Below are positions 47,190 through 58,100 of a stretch of 59,028 nt of DNA, in pieces (the stretch's first letter is position 1; each line of letters begins with the position of its first letter). The translations under genes were made by a program, and so were the position numbers. This DNA comes from Bacteroidaceae bacterium (GTDB taxonomy: Bacteria; Bacteroidota; Bacteroidia; Bacteroidales; Bacteroidaceae). The notes below the pieces were generated by a model, which was not told the DNA's origin, did not search any database, and saw only the letters and a list, made by a program, of their open reading frames with translations. Where the stretch lies: positions 1 through 59,028 of the forward strand of contig JAGAQH010000019.1 in assembly GCA_017622815.1 (NCBI GenBank), given 5' to 3'.

Positions 47190-48611
47190 TCAGCGAAACA
47201 AATCGTCCATTGTCAGTTCATTGCGGACACAATCGCTATACATGTTTTTCTTCACTCCGAAAGTAGTTATGAAGGTGAGATGAAGTCCTCCACGGGTTTG
47301 AGTCTCTTCTTGAAAACAGCCAATTCGGTTGCGGAGCCGAGTCTCTTCTGCTTTGCTGATGCTATATGGAAATTCACTGTACTTTACCTCGCAGACATTA
47401 ACCAGGTTGTCGGCCCGTTCAATTATCAGGTCAATCTGTGCGGCAGGTTGACTGTGTTTGCTTCGCCAGGAATAGTATTCAGTGTGTATTCGGTCAATGC
47501 CAAGTGTTGACTTGATTTGTGGTATATGTAGCAGACACACGCGCTCAAAGGCCAGTCCCAACCATGAATTCATTCGGCTTGTCCCTATCATGTTGGACCA
47601 ATAGTGTTCGTCTGTTGTTGTCTTTTGTGCAAAGGTGTAATGGAATAGTGTAAAGAGGTCAGTGAGTTGGTAAAATTGTGCATTGGCCTTGATTTTCTTT
47701 TCTTTTACGTTGAAACTTCGGATGAAGTCGCAGTTTTTTAGATTTGTGAGCATTTTGCTCAGTCGTCCGTTGTTGGATAATTTTGCTTTGTTTGCTATTT
47801 CATCTCTGGATAAGCCTTGTTTGTTTTCCGATAAAACCTTAATAATGGATAGGTAGGAATCGGGTGATGCAAACAAGGACTTGAATAGACGGTCGTGTTC
47901 GCGACGCATTTCCCCGTCCTCCCCAAAAAATAGGCGGTCGATGTTTTGTGCAAGGCTGTTTTTTTTGTCGAGCAGACTATAGTAATATGGTACTCCTCCT
48001 AATACCATGTAGGTTTGCAGTATGGACAAACGGTTCCATTCAAAACCATATTCTTTGAAATAATTCTCTGTTTCTGCTAATGTAAATGGGCGGAGGTGCA
48101 TCTCGTGAGTAATGCGGTTGTGTAGTCCGCCGTGATTGTCAATGATGTTGTCTACCATCCACGAGGTGGCCGAACCGCAGACAATCAGCTTGATATTGCT
48201 GTGATGAGCAGCCCAACCATTCCAGAAATGGTCAAATGCTCTGATGAAGTCAGATTTGGTGGTGTCAAAGCATGGCAGTTCGTCTATAAAGATAATGCAT
48301 CGTTGACATCCGACCTTGTCTTCAAGCATTTGTTGCAGTATTCCGAAGGCCTGGTTCCAATCTGTGGGTATGTCTGTTCTGTCGTATCCGTATCTGCGCA
48401 AGGCTTGTATGAAGTTGAACATTTGTTCGCTCTTCTTGCCATTGATGGTTCCCGATACTTCAAAGGTGAATTCATTGCCCAACAGTTCGCGAATTAGGAA
48501 AGTCTTTCCTACTCGGCGTCTGCCATAAACGGCTATGAATTCAGCCTTGCCAGAACTCATATATTCTTGCAGGGCTTTTATTTCTTTATCGCGCCCGATG
48601 ATGTTGCTCAT
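47190..48611 (-). CDS. AAA ATPase with C-terminal DUF234 nuclease-like domain
   Basis: 473 residues, of the ATPase_2 / DUF234 architecture common as multicopy genes in Bacteroidetes and archaea. Walker A GRRRVGKT at residues 30-37, Walker B CIIFIDELP near 115, sensor-like CGSATSWM. A winged-helix region (LSRDEIANKAKLSNNGRLSKMLTNL) lies in the middle. The C-terminal DUF234 has IDLIIERADNLVNVCEVKYS, an Asp/ExK arrangement as in PD-(D/E)XK folds. Function unknown. It is convergent with cvfB (27 bp) and preceded by 53-bp repeats and a TATCTTTG box at 48635-48642. Lower GC than its neighbours suggests acquisition. Confidence 0.9.
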   Translation of the reverse strand: MSNIIGRDKEIKALQEYMSSGKAEFIAVYGRRRVGKTFLIRELLGNEFTFEVSGTINGKKSEQMFNFIQALRRYGYDRTDIPTDWNQAFGILQQMLEDKVGCQRCIIFIDELPCFDTTKSDFIRAFDHFWNGWAAHHSNIKLIVCGSATSWMVDNIIDNHGGLHNRITHEMHLRPFTLAETENYFKEYGFEWNRLSILQTYMVLGGVPYYYSLLDKKNSLAQNIDRLFFGEDGEMRREHDRLFKSLFASPDSYLSIIKVLSENKQGLSRDEIANKAKLSNNGRLSKMLTNLKNCDFIRSFNVKEKKIKANAQFYQLTDLFTLFHYTFAQKTTTDEHYWSNMIGTSRMNSWLGLAFERVCLLHIPQIKSTLGIDRIHTEYYSWRSKHSQPAAQIDLIIERADNLVNVCEVKYSEFPYSISKAEETRLRNRIGCFQEETQTRGGLHLTFITTFGVKKNMYSDCVRNELTMDDLFR

Positions 48612-48656
48612 GCTTTTTTGCCTTTAGTTTATCGCAAAGATAAGTATATTTTTTAG

Positions 48657-48781
48657 ATACTGTGTCTAAAGTGCCCCAAAAATCATCGTTTTAGACCATC
48701 TATCGTGTGATACCATGTCTAAAGTGCTGAAAAAATCATCGTTTTAGACCACTTATCGTGTAATACTGTGTCTAAAGCACC
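48657..48781. repeat. Two and a third 53-bp tandem repeats upstream of the ATPase gene
   Basis: Units at 48657-48709 and 48710-48762 and a partial one at 48763-48781. Each full unit holds ATGATTTTTG-type A-rich sequence between GTCTAAAGTGC and GTTTTAGACCA, an imperfect inverted repeat. The spacing ahead of the gene (46 bp) suits autoregulatory operators. A smaller gap to 48902 shows nothing else. Confidence 0.85.
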
Positions 48782-48902: not shown

Positions 48903-49577
48903 TTACATCATCACCTCGTCCACCACGCAACCGTCGAAGAGGTTGACTATGCGGTCGGAATAGGCGGCATCTCGTGCCGAGTGTGTCACCATCACTATTG
49001 TTGTACCTTCGCGATGCAATTCGCGCAACAGCCCCATCACCTCCAGACCATTCTTTGAGTCAAGGTTTCCCGTAGGCTCGTCGGCAAGGATTACCTTGGG
49101 TTGCATCACCACGGCACGTGCTATGGCAGTACGTTGCTGCTGACCACCCGACAGCTGAGAGGGGAAGTGCTTGGCACGATGTTCAATGGCCATACGTTTC
49201 AGGGCATCGGTGATGCGACGCTTGCGCTCGTCGGCAGGAACTTTCATGTACAATAGAGGCAGTTCGATGTTTTCCTCTACGGTAAGTTCGTCAATCAGAT
49301 TAAAGCTCTGGAAGATGAAGCCCAGTGTGCCACGTCTAATCACATTGCGCTCCTTCTCGGTCAGTGCGCACATATCCTTGCCATCAAGGAAGTACTGACC
49401 ATCGGTAGGTCTGTCCAGCAAGCCAAGAATATTCAGCAGCGTAGACTTGCCACAACCCGAAGGTCCCATTATGGCTACAAACTCGCCCTGCTTTACCTCA
49501 AGGGAAACGTTAATCAATGCATGAGTCTCAACCTCTTCCGTGCGAAACACTTTTGATATACTATCAGTCTTAATCAT
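48903..49577 (-). CDS. ABC transporter ATP-binding protein, MacB-type
   Basis: 224 residues. Walker [13 protein letters not shown]-loop [20 protein letters not shown], signature [15 protein letters not shown], Walker [14 protein letters not shown]-loop [10 protein letters not shown]. It powers the adjacent FtsX-like permease encoded 75 bp upstream on the same strand. Its C-terminal 55 residues are nearly identical to those encoded by the fragment at 55013, so a second copy once existed. It lies downstream of the sigma-54 promoter at 52050-52067. Confidence 0.93.
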
Positions 49578-49652: not shown

Positions 49653-51968
49653 CTACGCCTTAATCACCATTGCCGGTTTTTCCTTGAAGCACATCTTCAC
49701 CTTGTAGGCAACAAGGATGGAGACAACGGATACAATCAGCACAATGATGCAGAGTGCAGGCATTACGCCAAGTGTTATTTGCTCGCTATATGTTTCAAGC
49801 CACATAGTCATCATTATATAGCCTATGCACAGACCCATGGCACTGCCAATGAATGTGATGAGGAGATAGGTGCGTAGGGTCTTGCCTAAGCATATAGAGT
49901 ATGTGGCACCGAAGATGCGACGGATGGCCAATGAACGGCGTTGGCGCTGAAGGTCGGCACTGATGAGTGTCAACAAACCGAAGAGTGCGATGCAGAAACC
50001 TATGGCAGAGAGAACTGAATATAGTTTCAGATAGTTCTGCTCCTTCTCGTAAGTATCAGATATCGTATCTCCAAAGTTGACCACACGAACAAGTCCGGCA
50101 TCCACATTCATGTCCCTACGACGCAACAGATCCTCCACGGCTGCTATACCTTCTTTCTCCCTGCCGGGATGGAAACTGAAGTAGGCAACATTTGTGTCCC
50201 AGTTATTATGATAATGGCTATAGGCAACCAAGTAGGGGTCTTGATGCATATTTATTGTACAAATATTCAGGATACCTACTGCTTCCAAACCATTTGGCAG
50301 AAAGGGATTCTCTGGTGTGATGCCAAAATACTTCGCGGTATTTGTAGCGAGCAAAATCTGGCCCATTTTCATTTCAAACTCCCCATCTGCATCTTTCCAT
50401 AGATTTGGCTTGATTTCGAATAGACGCATTGCAGCAGGAGTCAATTGCAAGGTCCACATATTCTTGTCAAATCCCTCAAAGGGCGTGACAGTATTTGAGG
50501 TAACATCATAAAACGGGGCTTGTACGATACAGGTGTCTACTGCTGCTATTGATGCAACTTCATGTGCAAATTCGGTGGAACTGACCAGGACCTGAGCTTT
50601 TGCATCAGTAGTTTTTATAGTGTAGACTTTGTGTGCATTAAATCCCAAGCCATCGTGGCTGACATACCTCAATTGTCTGCCACCATTCCACACCAGAAAG
50701 AGCAATAATACGCTGACGCTTATCTGCGTTGTTACAAAGATATGGTTCAGGAACGAGGATTTGCCTTGCGGTGCGCCATGGATAGCTTTCTTGTACTTTT
50801 TGTGTTGCAGATACACAGGTATTGTGCACAGAAAAATCAAGAGCACCACTATTGCGAACCATACCGTCACGAGCCATTGCATCACATCGCATTCCGGCAT
50901 CTGCATATACTCCAGGAAAGCTTTGTAACCCAGTTCCTGTATTATGCACGCACAAAATCCAACGCCAAGAAGTACCAATAGCACTTCGGAATAGATGCGT
51001 CGCAAGGTGTCGGTACCTGCACCGAAACTCAATCTTAGGCGATGCTCTGTCCAACGGCTTTCGGCATTTGTATTAAGCAATGCCAAGTATGAGAATGACG
51101 CAGATATGAGCAACAAGGCAGACAGTATAAGGAATATTCCAGGATACAAGGCTGCCTTCCAGAAACTGCTATTGCTCCACAACAGGTGAAACATTCTTAC
51201 TGGTACCAGTCTTAATGCTGCTACCTTCTCCTCCATATTCTCATTGTTCTGTTCTATCAATGCCATCAATGCCTTGCTATCTGTGGTCCTTGTAACAATC
51301 AATGCGGTATTGATTTTATATGTGTATTTACTAAACCATGTCACATTCTCGATCTTACGATATAAAAACGCCTGAGCACCTGTAATCATGCTTTCTTCTT
51401 CTCCTTTGACTATACCACATACTTTTGCCTGTATGCTTTTGTTATGGTCTTCTTCTAAAGTTATCTCTACCATAGTGCCCACCAAATCGGTTGTGCCATA
51501 CAGAACCTGTGCGGCTTGTTCGGAGACGACCACTTCACCTTCTTCTTGTACAGGTCGGCCGTAGATAAAATCCGCTTGTACCACATCAAAGAATTCGGGA
51601 GTTACCAATAGCACAGGCTTAGTCTGATTGGATGCACTATCTGTCCTTCCTTTTAATTTATTACCACTTAGTGATGCCATTGTAGCAATCATACCTTCAG
51701 GCATATTCTTTGTCAGTTCGCGTGCTTTTTTTACCGTAAAGAAATAATTGGATTGTGTGAGTCCTTCTGGTGTGTATGCTTGTAAAGCATATACATCGGC
51801 ATCGTCACCGATGCCATGTTCTTCGTGCGTTATTTCCCATATACCAGCAGCGGAGAATACGAAGGCGGCCATAGCAAACGACAATATGCCCACTATGAGG
51901 CAGGTCTGTAGCTTGTTGCGCTTGATGTGGCGCATGGCCTGAACGAAATTGATGAATAGTAACTTCAT
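49653..51968 (-). CDS. FtsX-like ABC transporter permease, MacB-type double domain
   Basis: 771 residues. The N-terminus MKLLFINFVQAMRHIKRNKLQTCLIVGILSFAM is a MacB-type start, followed by a periplasmic MacB_PCD-like domain, three membrane helices (about residues 270-390), a second helix and periplasmic domain, and a C-terminal FtsX block with three helices (QNYLKLYSVLSAIGFCIALFGLLTLISADLQRQRRSLAIRRIFGAT). Such transporters work by mechanotransmission to export peptides or lipoproteins from the periplasm. The substrate is unknown. It is the first gene after the sigma-54 promoter and enhancer pair, which ties it to the adjacent two-component system. Confidence 0.92.
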   Translation of the reverse strand: MKLLFINFVQAMRHIKRNKLQTCLIVGILSFAMAAFVFSAAGIWEITHEEHGIGDDADVYALQAYTPEGLTQSNYFFTVKKARELTKNMPEGMIATMASLSGNKLKGRTDSASNQTKPVLLVTPEFFDVVQADFIYGRPVQEEGEVVVSEQAAQVLYGTTDLVGTMVEITLEEDHNKSIQAKVCGIVKGEEESMITGAQAFLYRKIENVTWFSKYTYKINTALIVTRTTDSKALMALIEQNNENMEEKVAALRLVPVRMFHLLWSNSSFWKAALYPGIFLILSALLLISASFSYLALLNTNAESRWTEHRLRLSFGAGTDTLRRIYSEVLLVLLGVGFCACIIQELGYKAFLEYMQMPECDVMQWLVTVWFAIVVLLIFLCTIPVYLQHKKYKKAIHGAPQGKSSFLNHIFVTTQISVSVLLLFLVWNGGRQLRYVSHDGLGFNAHKVYTIKTTDAKAQVLVSSTEFAHEVASIAAVDTCIVQAPFYDVTSNTVTPFEGFDKNMWTLQLTPAAMRLFEIKPNLWKDADGEFEMKMGQILLATNTAKYFGITPENPFLPNGLEAVGILNICTINMHQDPYLVAYSHYHNNWDTNVAYFSFHPGREKEGIAAVEDLLRRRDMNVDAGLVRVVNFGDTISDTYEKEQNYLKLYSVLSAIGFCIALFGLLTLISADLQRQRRSLAIRRIFGATYSICLGKTLRTYLLITFIGSAMGLCIGYIMMTMWLETYSEQITLGVMPALCIIVLIVSVVSILVAYKVKMCFKEKPAMVIKA

Positions 51969-52049: not shown

Positions 52050-52067
52050 TGCAAAAACCGTGCCAAA
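52050..52067 (-). promoter_or_regulatory. Sigma-54 promoter of the ABC exporter
   Basis: The reverse strand reads TTTGGCACGGTTTTTGCA: TGGCAC, five bases, TTGC, a near-perfect -24/-12 element (GG and GC 10 bp apart). Transcription should start near 52040, leaving about 70 nt of leader before the permease ATG at 51968. Confidence 0.85.
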
Positions 52068-52121
52068 CATCTTATCTGCTGATTATGCAACAGTTACAGC
52101 GTTATGCTGGTTCTCAAAACC

Positions 52122-52156
52122 GTGCGTCAGCGCACATCAGGTGTGCGGAATCGCAC
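52122..52156. promoter_or_regulatory. Paired GTGCG-N4-CGCAC sites, enhancer for the sigma-54 promoter
   Basis: GTGCGTCAGCGCAC (52122-52135) and GTGCGGAATCGCAC (52143-52156) are 21 bp centre to centre, two helical turns, and lie about 90 and 110 bp upstream of the predicted start. This is where an NtrC-type activator dimer pair binds. Identical half sites appear at 54959 and 55176-55210. Confidence 0.8.
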
Positions 52157-52265: not shown

Positions 52266-53495
52266 CTAAGGTAGTGTTATCGTGAATACGCTTCCGTGCT
52301 GAGGTTGTGACTTTACGGATATGCGTCCGCCATGACGCTGGATTATCTGCTTGCAGAGGCTCAGGCCTATGCCGGACCCTTGTGGCTTGGTAGTAAAGAA
52401 CGGTATAAAGATGCTGTTAATCACTTCGGGCAGGATGCCCTGTCCGTAATCGCGGACGGAAATCTCTATGTGGCCGTTGGCATTGCGAGCCACGTTGATG
52501 TCTATAGGACCGGGACCCGCCTCGGAAGCATTGTTGACAAGATTCACCAGAACCTGCATCAGCAGGCGGGGGTCGGCATTGACTTCCAGAGTGGAGGGTG
52601 TGGCATTGCACCTCAGGCGCTGGCCGTAGAACTCCATCAGGTCGTTGAAATATTCCTGCACGGGTATTGCTTCGCATTGAGGCTGGGGTATGCGTGTCAG
52701 CTTGCGGTAGTTGTTGACAAAGTCCAGCAACCCCTTGCTGCGCCGGTGTATTACGCTCAGTGCCTGTTCTGCCTCGGTGGCAGTGTTGGAGGAATGGGAA
52801 TCCTTGGGTTCTGAAAGGCCGATGATGGGAGTGAGCGAGTTCATAATCTCGTGTGTCAGCACGCTTACCAACTTTTGCCATGCCTCTATCTCCGTTTCTT
52901 CAATCACTTCGTGTATGTCCCTGAGGCTGACAATGCGGTAGGTCTGTCTGTCCAGTACAAACTTGCGCGAGCATACCAGCATCTCGTACACCGTATTGTG
53001 ATGGGTGTGCGTCACCTTATGTGCCGAGTGTGTGGCTATCCATTCCTGTGGCATGTCGCGCATGGACCCCAACATCAGTATGGAGGCACGGTTCTGCCAT
53101 GTTATTTCGCCATCTTCCTTGCACACGAGTACACCAGTGTCCACTTCGTCAAGGACCTGCTCGTAGTAGTGCTGGCGTATGGCTTCGCTTTGCAGACGTT
53201 GCCTGAACATGTCGAACGTGAGGTTCAGTTCCCTGACAATGGCACGCCCAAAGCTGCCCTTGGACGAAGAAACCCTGTCCGATGTGTCGCCCATGCGTAT
53301 CAGTTCTATAGTGCCAAGCATGGTGGATAATAGATGCTTTTGCATGGAGACGATATATATAATAAGGAATACCTGCACCAGCAGGCATCCGAAGGCGCTG
53401 AAGTAGAAATCGTGCAGCAGACACGCTACCAAGGCATAGGCGCTGAGCGTGAGCAGGACGGTTGTGCACAGAACCTTTAGAGTGAATCTTGTCAT
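52266..53495 (-). CDS. Sensor histidine kinase, NtrB-like class
   Basis: 409 residues. The start at 53495 overlaps the regulator stop by 4 bases (ATGA). Two membrane helices (residues 6-27 and 32-50) leave almost no periplasmic part, so the signal may be sensed within the membrane or cytoplasm. A PAS-like domain follows (YYEQVLDEVDTGVLVCKEDGEITWQN, about 108-190). The phosphorylated His215 lies in SVLTHEIMNSLTPI. N-box NLVNNASEAG, then GQGI and FTTKPQGSGIGLSLCKQII complete the ATPase domain. It partners the sigma-54 regulator upstream of it in the operon. Confidence 0.94.
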   Translation of the reverse strand: MTRFTLKVLCTTVLLTLSAYALVACLLHDFYFSAFGCLLVQVFLIIYIVSMQKHLLSTMLGTIELIRMGDTSDRVSSSKGSFGRAIVRELNLTFDMFRQRLQSEAIRQHYYEQVLDEVDTGVLVCKEDGEITWQNRASILMLGSMRDMPQEWIATHSAHKVTHTHHNTVYEMLVCSRKFVLDRQTYRIVSLRDIHEVIEETEIEAWQKLVSVLTHEIMNSLTPIIGLSEPKDSHSSNTATEAEQALSVIHRRSKGLLDFVNNYRKLTRIPQPQCEAIPVQEYFNDLMEFYGQRLRCNATPSTLEVNADPRLLMQVLVNLVNNASEAGPGPIDINVARNANGHIEISVRDYGQGILPEVINSIFIPFFTTKPQGSGIGLSLCKQIIQRHGGRISVKSQPQHGSVFTITLP

Positions 53496-54853
53496 AGACC
53501 GTACTTCTCCATCTTTCGGTACAACATGAATCGGGTAATGCCCAGCAGTTTGGACGCACGGCTCACATTGCCTTCGCAACGCGCCAGTGCCCGCTCTATT
53601 GAGATGCGCTCCACGGTTTCCAGATCGAGCGTGTCTTCCGGATTGGCAGATGGAAGCCTGTTGAAACTATCAGCAGGCAGATCGTTTGTCCCAATTACTG
53701 ATTTCTTGCACAGGATAACGCCACGCTCTATCAGATGTTGCAGTTCGCGCACATTGCCCGGCCAACTGTATTCCTTCAGTCGTTTGAGCAGTTCGGCAGA
53801 AAGCCCGGTGATGTTCTTGGAATACTTGCGGGCATAGATGTTGGTAAAGTGCTTTGCCAGCAGGGGAATGTCCGTAATGCGTTTGCACAATGGCGGAACA
53901 CGCAGTTCTATGGTATTGATGCGATAGAGCAGATCCTGGCGGAAGGCCCCCTCTGCCACTGCCCTGTGTATGTCAATATTGGTGGCGCAGATAAGGCGGA
54001 CATCAATGGGGACGACCTTTGTGGAACCAAGACGCGAGCATTGGCGCTTTTCTATGCATGTCAGCAACTTTGCCTGAATCTCTGTCCTTAGATTTCCTAT
54101 CTCGTCCAGAAACAGGGTGCCGCCATTGGCACTCTCCATGCGTCCTGCCTTGGCACTAAGGGCACCGGTGAAGGCACCACGCTCATATCCGAACAGTTCG
54201 CCTTCAAACAATGTCTCTGGCACAGCTCCCAGATCAATGCCTACAAAGGGCTTGCCGTTGCGCAAGGAATGCCTGTAGATGTATTGTGCAAGTACGTCCT
54301 TGCCGGTGCCGTTCTCGCCCAGAATGAGTATGTTGGCATCCGTCTTGGCCACTTCCCTGGCAAGGGAGAGCAGTTGTTGCATGGATTCGCTTTCTCCGAT
54401 TATCTCCGGGGCAGCATGCGAGGTGCCTGAGGATTGCGCTCTTGACGGAGATTCCTCGCATCCCGATCCCTTTAACCGCATGGCAGAAGAGAGCATTGCC
54501 ATCAGTTGGCTCCTCTCCCAAGGCTTGGGCAGGAAGTCTGTGGCACCTGCCTTAATGGCGCGTACCACTTTGGGCGTATCGCTATAGGCAGTCATCATGA
54601 TAACAGCCAGGGTCTTGTCTATCTTCAGCATATCCCTGAGCAACTGGAACCCCTCTTCACCGCTCACTGCATCGCGGGTGAAGTTCATGTCCATCAGTAC
54701 CACATCGGGGCTATACTTCTTGCATAGCATCAGGGCACGCTCGGGTGTATAGGCAACTCTCACCCATTCGCAACGTGGCGCCAACTGGTTGTTGATGGTG
54801 AAAAGCACATCGGCATTGTCGTCGACAACAAGGATTTTTCCAAACTTCTCCAT
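53492..54853 (-). CDS. Sigma-54-dependent response regulator, NtrC family
   Basis: 453 residues. Receiver domain with D11, D12 and phospho-acceptor D55 (VVLMDMNF); AAA+ domain with Walker [11 protein letters not shown], an intact GAFTGA loop ([13 protein letters not shown]) that contacts sigma-54, and Walker [12 protein letters not shown]; a C-terminal Fis-type HTH ([33 protein letters not shown]). It should activate the promoter at 52050-52067 by binding GTGCG-N4-CGCAC sites. One such site, as core of a 42-bp palindrome, lies 106-119 bp before its own start, suggesting autoregulation. rpoN is not in the window. Confidence 0.95.
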
Positions 54854-54944: not shown

Positions 54945-54986
54945 TTAAGAGTAAAAGTGTGCGGTACCGCACACTTTTACTCTTAA
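54945..54986. promoter_or_regulatory. 42-bp perfect palindrome with GTGCG-N4-CGCAC core
   Basis: The sequence from TTAAGAGTAAAAGTGTGCGGT to its exact inverse has no mismatches and no loop. The centre GTGCGGTACCGCAC (54959-54972) matches the enhancer consensus. It lies upstream of the response regulator gene and downstream of the ABC fragment. It may be an autoregulatory site; a two-way terminator is the alternative, though no T-run follows. A TAATTTTG-type box at 54890-54897 lies between it and the gene. Confidence 0.65.
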
Positions 54987-55012: not shown

Positions 55013-55177
55013 TTAAATTTCCATCGTGTCCATGACCCTTCCGTCGAACAAATTGACAATGCGGTCGGCATAGGAGGCATCACGGGCAGAGTGTGTCACC
55101 ATCACTATGGTCGTGCCTTCTTTGTGTAGTTCTCGCAGAAGCATCATCACTTCCTGACCGTTTTTGGAATCCAGATT
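55013..55177 (-). pseudogene. C-terminal remnant of a MacB-type ATPase gene
   Basis: From NLDSKNG onward the frame encodes [43 protein letters not shown], nearly identical to the end of the intact ATPase at 48903. Everything before the Walker B region is missing: there is no P-loop and no start. The break falls exactly at a GTGCG-N4-CGCAC pair, as if a deletion had joined an enhancer region to the interior of the gene. Confidence 0.88.
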
Positions 55178-55210
55178 GCGCTGGCGCACATCTGCCGTGC
55201 GCCAGCGCAC
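55176..55210. promoter_or_regulatory. Second GTGCG-N4-CGCAC pair with 21-bp spacing
   Basis: TTGCGCTGGCGCAC (55176-55189, one mismatch) and GTGCGCCAGCGCAC (55197-55210) are 21 bp centre to centre, exactly as at 52122-52156. No sigma-54 promoter remains beside them. Region 55211-55282 shows nothing else I can name. Confidence 0.7.
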
Positions 55211-55415: not shown

Positions 55416-58100
55416 TTATTTTTTCTTCGTAGCAAAACGATACTTCACGCTCAGCATAGCATACCTGCCGAGAGTATTATTGTACGTATTGGTGAGAGAG
55501 GTGGCATCGTACATGCGAGTGAAGCCGGTGTTCTCATTCAGCAAATCATGGGCAGATATTTCGACAAGTAGATTCTGTCCTTTCAAAAAGTATCGTTCAA
55601 TAGAGAAGTCCATCATAAGCCAGTCCATGCGCTTGCGGTCAGCATGGTATGCCGCATAGTTCTGGTAGTTTATTACAGCATCGAAGTTGAGCGACCAAGG
55701 CAGTTGCCATGTCAGACGTCCTTGGATGTGGTGTTGCCACAGTTCTTTATTATTGCCAGCGATGTAAGTGCTACGGTTGTTCTCAAGAGTAAGTTCGTAG
55801 GCGATGGATGCATCAATATTACTAAACTTCGCACGAGGCTTTACTTTTGCCGAGTAAGCATGGAGATAGTTGCTGTTGAGCATGGGCTGTTCATCTTTAT
55901 GTCCTACCACGGCATAACTGTTGGTGTGGTGTATGTGTGCATTGGCAGATACATCCAGCCAAAAACGTTGTGAACGGTCGAGTGGAGTGGTAAAGTTGGC
56001 TCCCAGACTGCCATACCAGTTGCCTGAGACGTTGATGGGTGTAGAGGTTACCTCGCCACTGACACGGTCATAGGTCATGAGGTTTGTGAAATCATTCTCA
56101 ATAAAGGCTACGTTGAGGTTGGCACTCAGTAGCCGTGTCACTTTGCTGCTATCTGCACGGTAACTGATGAGATCTTTGTTGTATGAACTTCGCAGATTGT
56201 ATTTGGTACTTTTCTTCAAAGCCTCGTTGCCATAAATGATATATTGGGGGTCGGCCATATCAGGATAGGTTACGAGCGATAGAATGTCGGGTAGTGTGTG
56301 CGAAATGTCTCCATAGAATCGCAGAGTACCCAGTTTGTCTGTGCTGAATCTAAACTGTGATTTAAGATCCACATATATATAGTCGCGCTCTGGAGTGAGT
56401 GTTGGCAATGTTCCCTTGGTATAGTATAACCGTTCCTTGGCGAAACAGATAGTGGGCCAAAGTTCCATATAGAATATCTCTTTGCCAAGATCTATGGCTG
56501 GTGTTATGGAGTGAGTATTACTTGTAGACTCCCAATGTCGGGTGGTCTCGTCCTCCATTGCTACAGAGCGCCACGAGGCATCGGTAGGCAACGTGCCAAA
56601 GAGTTCGTGCGATGTGGTAGGGTCGTTGTAGACACCACCCAGATTGTTTAGCAAATATCCATGTTCGTCATGTTCTTCATGCTGGTATTTGTAGTCGTAT
56701 ACCAAAGACGTACAGAAATAATTAAATCCCTTGACATCATAATACTTCATAATCCTTGCCTTTACATCTTGCTTGGAATTGTTGCTCTGCATATCCTTGT
56801 AGCGGTTAATCAAGGTGGAGTTTGTATGTTCTGTATTGAAATACTTGTAGTATGTCTGGTTGTGTTCTGCCCCACTATCGTATCCTATGTGCATATTATG
56901 AAAGAGGGAGATGTATATGTCCTTATCAGCAATAGCATGAGTTATTTTCAGATTATGGTCATACTTTGCAGCATCGCCCCGATTCAGTACAGACTTGCGT
57001 TGAAGGTCTATGACTGAAGGCTGATAAGGCGGAGCTATGGAGAGGTATAGCAAGGTGTCGGCAAGGTGTTCGCCATACTCAGGACGTTCGTTCCAATTAG
57101 CTGTAAGAGAAGACAGATTCTCGGTGTGCTGATGAATGTCTAAATTTCCTTGGTAACTCAAGGACGTGGCATCGGCTATTTTCCAGTCGAGTCTCATCAT
57201 TGCGGCAATACGGTCGGTGTCGCTATTCTTTTGTACATCAGAGGCAGAGTACATGCTTCCGTCAGACAGATATAGTTCGCGCTCTGTCTGAGTGTTATTG
57301 TCATGCTGTTCCTTATTGTAATCCACGCTACCCTCTATCTTGAAGTATCCCTTCTGTTTCTGTCGAAGCTTGTTTTTCCAGTAAAATGTGGCACCAGGTG
57401 TGTAATAGCGGTTATCTCCTGCCACTGCATCTCCCGGGCATTGACGTCCGTCGCCACTATACCATATCTGTTCATTGATATTATTGGCATTGCCAAATAA
57501 CGATATTCGGTACTGGTCGGTAAAGGTGTTGGCAAATCCGCGACCCATGAAACGCTTGTCACTGCCGCCACCGGCAGCAATCTCGCCAGTCCATGTGCCC
57601 ATGTATTTACGACGTACTGTGACATCAGCCACCAATTCACGGAAACCGTCGTCCTTTCCATGCATCATGCTGAAATCGCTCTGCCGTTCATATACTTTCA
57701 CATCTTTCATAATATATGATGGCAGGGTCTGCAAGGCCAGCATAGGGTCTTTGCGCGAGAAGTCAACTCCGTTGATAAGAATGCTATTCACTTCACGTCC
57801 ATTGTGATAGAGTACTCCATCCCTGAAACTCATGCCAGGCAAACGCTCAAAGGCATCGCGTAACAATGCCCCTTCCTTTATGGTTAGCGCATCCAGGTCG
57901 TAGATGGTGGTGTCGTTCTTGGTAACAAGCAGTAGTCTTGTGGCACGGACAGTTACTTCCGAAAGTGTATCTACGTTAATACTGTCTGTAGATGAGGTAT
58001 TTACGGGAGTGCCCTCAGTCATTGGTAGATTGTTTGCATAGACAGATTGAAATATGGATGTAAATAGGCATCCTAATATCAGATAATATCTATTTTTCAT
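55416..58100 (-). CDS. Outer-membrane beta-barrel receptor, TonB-dependent receptor-like
   Basis: 894 residues with signal peptide MKNRYYLILGCLFTSIFQSVYA. A plug domain (residues about 45-150: LSEVTVRATRLLLVTKNDTTIYDLDALTIKEGALLRDAFERLPGMSF..VNSILINGVDFSRKDP) is followed by a long beta-barrel of the OMP_b-brl_3 type, ending GRYAMLSVKYRFATKKK. It lacks the N-terminal carboxypeptidase-like domain that most Bacteroidetes relatives have. No SusD partner is adjacent, so it is unlikely to be a glycan SusC. Ligand unknown. It lies upstream of the sigma-54 cluster on the same strand. Confidence 0.92.
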   Translation of the reverse strand: MKNRYYLILGCLFTSIFQSVYANNLPMTEGTPVNTSSTDSINVDTLSEVTVRATRLLLVTKNDTTIYDLDALTIKEGALLRDAFERLPGMSFRDGVLYHNGREVNSILINGVDFSRKDPMLALQTLPSYIMKDVKVYERQSDFSMMHGKDDGFRELVADVTVRRKYMGTWTGEIAAGGGSDKRFMGRGFANTFTDQYRISLFGNANNINEQIWYSGDGRQCPGDAVAGDNRYYTPGATFYWKNKLRQKQKGYFKIEGSVDYNKEQHDNNTQTERELYLSDGSMYSASDVQKNSDTDRIAAMMRLDWKIADATSLSYQGNLDIHQHTENLSSLTANWNERPEYGEHLADTLLYLSIAPPYQPSVIDLQRKSVLNRGDAAKYDHNLKITHAIADKDIYISLFHNMHIGYDSGAEHNQTYYKYFNTEHTNSTLINRYKDMQSNNSKQDVKARIMKYYDVKGFNYFCTSLVYDYKYQHEEHDEHGYLLNNLGGVYNDPTTSHELFGTLPTDASWRSVAMEDETTRHWESTSNTHSITPAIDLGKEIFYMELWPTICFAKERLYYTKGTLPTLTPERDYIYVDLKSQFRFSTDKLGTLRFYGDISHTLPDILSLVTYPDMADPQYIIYGNEALKKSTKYNLRSSYNKDLISYRADSSKVTRLLSANLNVAFIENDFTNLMTYDRVSGEVTSTPINVSGNWYGSLGANFTTPLDRSQRFWLDVSANAHIHHTNSYAVVGHKDEQPMLNSNYLHAYSAKVKPRAKFSNIDASIAYELTLENNRSTYIAGNNKELWQHHIQGRLTWQLPWSLNFDAVINYQNYAAYHADRKRMDWLMMDFSIERYFLKGQNLLVEISAHDLLNENTGFTRMYDATSLTNTYNNTLGRYAMLSVKYRFATKKK

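Follow-up and report, generated by a model that had tools for sequence, protein, structure and literature searches.

Paired GTGCG-N4-CGCAC sites upstream of sigma-54 promoters suggest a two-component export regulon in Bacteroidales

A pair of palindromic GTGCG-N4-CGCAC sites placed upstream of a sigma-54 promoter very probably belongs to a two-component, sigma-54-dependent export regulon that is present in many Bacteroidales and whose control region here is that of an export operon. The DNA analyzed is a 59,028-nucleotide stretch from a Bacteroidaceae bacterium, referred to as the window. The sites, the promoter, the fixed or helically stepped distance between them, the association with one regulator clade, and the exporter targets can all be read directly in the DNA. 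To judge from these sequences, the pair seems to be an address label for an export-control system, because in many related bacteria it recurs at a fixed promoter distance, usually near one type of regulator and before pump genes. To our knowledge, sigma-54 targets and activator codes have hardly been worked out in Bacteroidales, a major gut order. Here a regulator clade, a DNA address, and the target pumps are tied together in named strains, which makes a direct search for inducers and substrates possible.

The relevant genes of the window all lie on the minus strand, with a regulator and a kinase upstream of the promoter and a permease and an ABC ATPase downstream. The regulator (53492..54853) is an NtrC-type response regulator with a receiver domain (Response_reg, 75.9 bits), an AAA+ domain (PF00158, 215.6 bits), and a Fis-type HTH (HTH_8, 49.9 bits) by Pfam, and its AAA+ domain carries GAFTGA; these are the marks of a sigma-54 enhancer-binding protein. 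The partner histidine kinase (52266..53495), whose ATG likely overlaps the regulator stop (ATG/TGA), scored over the cut-off for HATPase_c and just under it for HisKA, and hydropathy indicates an N-terminal two-helix hairpin with no evident periplasmic sensor domain. The target permease (49653..51968, 771 aa) is a duplicated member of the FtsX/MacB_PCD superfamily, scoring 48.4 bits for FtsX (PF02687, cut-off 25.5) and 30.3 bits for MacB_PCD (PF12704, cut-off 27), with an NCBIfam match to ADOP (89.2 bits) under the cut-off. The ABC ATPase (48903..49577; Pfam ABC_tran) is a separate gene of the MacB/LolD type with DarD as its best NCBIfam match (273.3 bits against a cut-off of 375). In MacB, the macrolide exporter, an ATPase is fused to a 4-TM permease; here no ATPase is fused to the permease, and by hydropathy its eight hydrophobic helices fall into two halves that resemble ADOP/DarB-type duplicated permeases, unlike MacB proper. 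The term MacB-type exporter, used in the earlier note, is therefore a loose one.

Upstream of the permease start at 51968, the sequence TGGCACGGTTTTTGCA (52065-52050, minus strand) matches TGGCAC-N5-TTGC exactly, with correctly spaced -24/-12 GG...GC elements. It is the only perfect match within the window, is identical in the close relative G259, and predicts a transcript start at ∼52040 when counted from the -12 element at 52051. Two exact GTGCG-N4-CGCAC palindromes, both putative operators, lie further upstream: the promoter-proximal site GTGCGTCAGCGCAC (52122-52135), with its inner edge 56 bp upstream of the promoter, and the distal site GTGCGGAATCGCAC (52143-52156). They are separated by a 7-bp gap and repeat with a period of 21 bp, equal to two helical turns, so that their centers fall near -89 and -110 relative to the predicted start. 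In G259, one N4 base of GTGCGTCAGCGCAC is changed and GTGCGGAATCGCAC is identical. The promoter ahead of the permease gene, the two sites about 90 and 110 bp upstream at 21-bp spacing, and the intact GAFTGA loop of the neighboring regulator had all been named in the earlier note and were borne out; its list of sites was incomplete, missing a second near-exact pair at 55176-55210, an exact site at 54959-54972, and a further target on contig C26. Single sites carry little information. Relaxed single sites (up to 2 mismatches) numbered 31 in the window against 28.5 expected, and exact single sites numbered six in the organism's own genome against three for a reversed control. With single sites at or near chance in both window and genome, single-site scanning was dropped as evidence. 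Unlike single sites, the pair and its promoter distance are not chance.

The distribution of the pair across the organism's own genome (2.57 Mb, 88% complete) makes this point more sharply. That genome encodes rpoN (PF04552, 161.5 bits, contig C11) and has six PF00158 matches, four of them strong and NtrC-type (>200 bits) and the others at 31 and 21 bits. Genome-wide, a 7-bp-gap pair within 3 mismatches was found only at 52122 and 55176, and the control gave 0. The genome contains 28 perfect TGGCAC-N5-TTGC sites, and a pair precedes two of them within 160 bp, at distances of 56 and 57 bp; at each of the remaining 26, the best upstream match has at least 6 mismatches in 20. The scan for pairs that the earlier note proposed thus returned positions that are not random. 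The second of these promoters lies on contig C26, where the pair has 1 mismatch, a 6-bp gap, and a distance of 57 bp. It stands ahead of genes for a TolC-type channel and an adaptor (best NCBIfam match DarC, 149.3 bits against a cut-off of 450) and points away from the genes of a paralogous regulator and its kinase. Between them, the window and C26 targets cover every component of a tripartite ABC exporter, and we infer that these components work together. The genome has two more full NtrC-type regulators, on contigs C10 and C6, and no pair was present at either locus. An exact site on C18 (L005) was considered as a candidate and dropped, being inside a coding region.

To place the pair in other genomes, we searched a collection of species genomes for pairs whose two sites are 5-9 bp apart, which returned at least 120 loci, a sample that sorted by record title into 65 Bacteroidota and 55 others. 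By a stricter pattern, a promoter lies 30-120 bp away in 63 of the 84 distinct Bacteroidota pairs (matches listed plus family loci) and in none of the 72 pairs from loci titled other phyla, among the matches listed; the latter are mostly tandem repeats (e.g., Rokubacteria and Magnetomicrobium) among those same matches. Since the strict pattern misses promoters ending TTTG[TA], a slightly looser motif was applied to 90 distinct Bacteroidota pairs, comprising 64 among the scan matches listed, 25 from other fetched loci, and the organism's own. An outward sigma-54 match was found at 45-80 bp for 78 of these 90 pairs, with 47 at exactly 56 bp and 66 at 53-58 bp among the matches listed. Displaced outward by one or two turns of the helix, nine fall at 63-68 bp and three at 76-77 bp, with none at 59-62 or 69-75 bp among the 78 listed. 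On the same 90 pairs, the inward orientation gave 4 matches and five scrambled motifs gave 0-3 each. Because the distance moves in steps of ∼10 bp, these data suggest that the activator must occupy a given face of the helix. Twelve of the 90 listed pairs have no promoter at 45-80 bp: eleven have none, and L217 has only a poor match at 22 bp, let in by the one-mismatch rule and not counted. Some of the promoterless pairs sit in unrelated repeats (e.g., L013, L080, and L110).

Of the 399 family genomes, 47 carry an exact pair, and the reversed motif gave 0 in every genome. Incomplete MAGs are frequent among the genomes and numerous loci are related to one another, so the counts given here are not independent. 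A phylum draw of 296 genomes, which contained no same-order genomes outside the family, included three family members, of which only the window's own genome has an exact pair; the remaining 293 have none. Pairs were also found in other Bacteroidales, for instance Parabacteroides gordonii, among the matches listed.

The genes placed behind these promoters are mostly exporter parts. A first gene could be called for 63 of the 84 Bacteroidota pairs among the matches listed, and by Pfam these 63 first genes include OEP/TolC family proteins (36), MacB_PCD (18), FtsX (15), and ABC ATPase (2). In the laboratory commensal Phocaeicola vulgatus ATCC 8482 (NC_009614.1 near 4,002,176; regulator ORF at about 4,002,225-4,003,664), the promoter is followed by the gene of a Sel1-repeat protein and then by that of a TolC homologue, and at L022, L031, and L112 the first genes are not obviously exporter parts.

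The pair is accompanied by a particular clade of regulators. Relatives of the window regulator split at a score gap, with one group at ≥445 bits and the rest at ≤380 bits. In a survey of 80 of the 399 genomes, chosen by hand as 40 of the 47 pair-bearing and 40 pair-free genomes, the high-scoring clade was found in 37/40 pair-bearing and 13/40 exact-pair-free genomes (Fisher p = 2.8e-8). All 13 of the latter hold a pair with 1-2 mismatches in 20 near the regulator; nine of these degenerate pairs have a promoter at 54-56 bp, and four have none by the pattern used (L254, L255, L257, and L265). Counted by locus, 17 of 20 clade loci have such a pair, with none within the fetched stretch of L267, L268, and L272; at L267, the recognition helix is also changed. 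No pair within 4 mismatches was found at 20 loci of other NtrC-type regulators. Conversely, G035 and G053 (89% and 92% complete) carry a pair with no clade member detected, and G379, which apparently carries the same contig as L118 with its regulator split into two frames, gave a weak match only. Read by eye, the recognition helix of the clade is LG[IV][TS]R[FY]xLYRK, and that of another clade contains RQTLYNK. The earlier note had joined one regulator, its DNA code, and its exporter target into a system. These elements do cohere, well outside this locus too, given the co-occurrence of clade and pair, the fixed promoter distance, and the exporter first genes; the code belongs to a whole clade, and its target is most often a TolC-type gene. 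Among 111 reading frames of this clade (clade A) in the fetched loci, not de-duplicated, the loop reads GAFTDA in 85 and GAFTGA in 22, with 4 unresolved. According to PMC4641369, on Desulfovibrio, the GAFTDA variant is compatible with activation.

The second clade appears to use an operator of its own. At RQTLYNK-clade loci, we found a palindrome, GTCYAA-N3-TTRGAC, near sigma-54 promoters, sometimes paired with a 22-bp period. This motif was found post hoc and is present within one mismatch in 8/14 discovery loci. In 20 further loci, it is present in 13, with 24 sites against 1 for the reversed control, a test that is not fully independent because some of these loci are orthologues of discovery loci. 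Divided by helix, 13/17 further loci with a detected helix and 0/3 without one have the motif; L277, L278, L286, and L293 have the RQTLYNK helix and no GTCYAA site. The motif is absent from 20 clade-A loci (125 kb). GTGCG sites within one mismatch number 35 in the 20 clade-A loci versus 2 in the 14 discovery loci, and in the 20 further RQTLYNK loci there are five at the same tolerance, all single and one an exact match. This double dissociation of two operators is the best evidence that the adjacent regulator reads the site, and the code of the second clade suggests that the recognition helix may reveal which operator a regulator uses. Several RQTLYNK-clade members were seen beside exporter genes (loci L233-L246 and L274-L293).

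Across the fetched loci, the partner kinases start with a helix hairpin or have no membrane helix near the N terminus. A hydrophobic segment precedes residue 120 in 47 of 58 kinase frames, often as two adjacent segments, and 11 are without one, in a set assessed by hydropathy only that is not fully de-duplicated and includes some partial frames. Two helices with a domain-sized gap were not found among the printed kinase segments (at most four per protein). As hydropathy gives no evident periplasmic sensor, this suggests that the kinases may sense within the membrane or through a coupled transporter, as Bce systems do. We propose, in line with the standard sigma-54 scheme, that such a sensor kinase, without an evident periplasmic sensor domain, would respond to a signal by phosphorylating the NtrC-type clade regulator. 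The phosphorylated regulator would bind directly to the two palindromic GTGCG-N4-CGCAC sites, two helical turns apart, and an AAA+ ring would assemble on the paired sites. Acting as an activator and not as a repressor, this ring would remodel the closed sigma-54 polymerase held 56 bp downstream on the TGGCAC-TTGC promoter. The tripartite ABC exporter would then be switched on, with the permease and ATPase made from this operon and the TolC-type channel and adaptor from C26, and would move its presumed substrate out of the cell.

A different role for the same partners is conceivable, in which the pair is this regulator's operator but serves mainly repression or autoregulation, and its proximity to sigma-54 promoters reflects divergent gene order. 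We consider this unlikely. It draws on a -7-like TAnnTTTG box found on the far side of the pair, at a spacing of exactly 23 bp from that edge, in 22 of the 78 listed pairs with a one-sided promoter, so that the pair would there be placed just upstream of a housekeeping promoter. Because a regulator frame lies within 400 bp on that side in 22/22 of these listed pairs, the pair in divergent loci may indeed control the regulator's own promoter too. However, the pair in the window sits between kinase and permease and not at the regulator's promoter, and the sigma-54 distance stays at 53-58 bp in 66 of the 78 listed, as it does in stretches showing no regulator (e.g., L041, L073, L093, and L121); moreover, both roles can coexist. 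The TAnnTTTG box was often seen after a ACAACACA-like sequence, on the regulator side in L070, L059, L118, L183, and others.

It is very unlikely that a protein other than the neighboring clade regulator reads the pair. G035 and G053 would be explained by such a reader, yet both genomes are incomplete, and the co-occurrence of clade and pair, their adjacency in many loci, a recognition helix peculiar to the clade, and the separate operator of a second clade all argue for the neighbor. As for the promoter and palindromes being chance matches, we give this almost no weight: single sites do occur at chance in the window when relaxed and at only twice the control genome-wide when exact, but the family-genome counts of exact pairs (47 of 399, against 0 for the control) and the fixed promoter distance refute a chance origin of the pair, and in G259 pair and promoter are kept save one N4 base. 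The evidence thus favors activation of exporter genes by the clade regulator through the paired sites.

Compared with known systems, the window regulator has the receiver, PF00158 AAA+ domain, and Fis-type HTH in common with NtrC, ZraR, and AtoC, and NtrC-family regulators and ZraR are among its relatives with solved structures. NtrC-type systems likewise have palindromic sites in tandem ahead of a -24/-12 promoter, as found here. The regulator falls under the NCBIfam cut-offs for AtoC (339.9/714), NtrC (337.5/558.6), and ZraR (304.9/760), and its match to the PEP-CTERM regulator is also below cut-off. The NtrC site is TGCACC/GGTGCA, from which GTGCG-N4-CGCAC differs. On the exporter side, MacB_PCD, FtsX, a MacB/LolD-like ATPase, a TolC-type channel, and an adaptor are common to this regulon and to the MacAB-TolC and DarBCD (darobactin) exporters. 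None of the DarBCD equivalog cut-offs was reached, DarB scoring 27.8/700 in addition to the DarD and DarC values above, and MacB equivalog scores were below cut-off too. In Bce-type detoxification modules, an FtsX-type transporter is accompanied by a kinase that has a two-helix hairpin and lacks an evident periplasmic domain. The window kinase has the same hairpin, lacks an evident periplasmic domain, and lies adjacent to an FtsX-type transporter, whereas the regulator here is NtrC-type and works with sigma-54, in place of the OmpR-type regulator of Bce. A tentative extension would be that these are a modular family of sigma-54 export-defense circuits in Bacteroidales, in which the helix sets one operator pair per clade and the kinases, devoid of any outside sensor, read the transporter's activity or substrate load, a sigma-54 counterpart of Bce-type flux sensing. 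Within that reading, GTGCG-N4-CGCAC would possibly be the code for R[FY]xLYRK and GTCYAA-N3-TTRGAC that for RQTLYNK, an assignment we offer with considerable reserve.

Sigma-54 promoters of COG0577 permeases have been predicted in Bacteroidia by a position matrix and called first evidence (PMC12316311), and MacB/FtsX-type permeases are enriched among the predicted sigma-54 targets in Bacteroidia (PMC12316311). By term search, the main text of that paper contains no TolC, UAS, or upstream-activating terms, and the passages matched there give no operator or cognate regulator. Similarly, the main text of PMC3162934 contains no Bacteroid-, ABC transporter, or TolC terms, and such a regulator is only listed in a table of PMC10434189. 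Among the literature matches listed, which cover few subscription papers, so that a description may exist, we found none of the operator or regulator. Thus, where the earlier note knew of no described Bacteroidales system with this site, the literature matches listed likewise show no description of the operator, but sigma-54 control of COG0577 permeases in Bacteroidia had already been predicted (PMC12316311). The two-component sigma-54 exporter regulon as a whole reads as undescribed.

Near 55 kb, the window holds traces of what may be an older arrangement. The second pair (55176..55210), a putative operator with a 7-bp gap and 1 mismatch in 20, has no sigma-54 promoter seen adjoining it. Fused directly to it is a 54-aa remnant of an ABC ATPase C terminus (55016..55175, minus strand), in which 43/54 residues are identical to the end of the intact ATPase. 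In G259, the gene order is the same, one site of the second pair is kept, and most of the remnant is lost. The stretch 55016-55210 is probably the scar of a lost second operator-permease-ATPase copy. Upstream of the regulator, in the interval that separates its start from the ATPase remnant, lies a 42-bp perfect palindrome (54945..54986) whose core is the exact site 54959-54972; G259 retains this site and nearly the whole palindrome, which may be a terminator-like element or an operator.

Two further features of the window were noted. An 894-aa protein (55416-58100, minus strand) by eye resembles an outer-membrane barrel protein, although neither Pfam nor NCBIfam gave a match at 0.001. A tandem repeat at 48656-48777, with 2.3 copies of a 53-bp unit, is placed between the ATPase gene and an AAA ATPase gene (47190-48611) and contains GTCTAAA...TTTAGAC half-sites.
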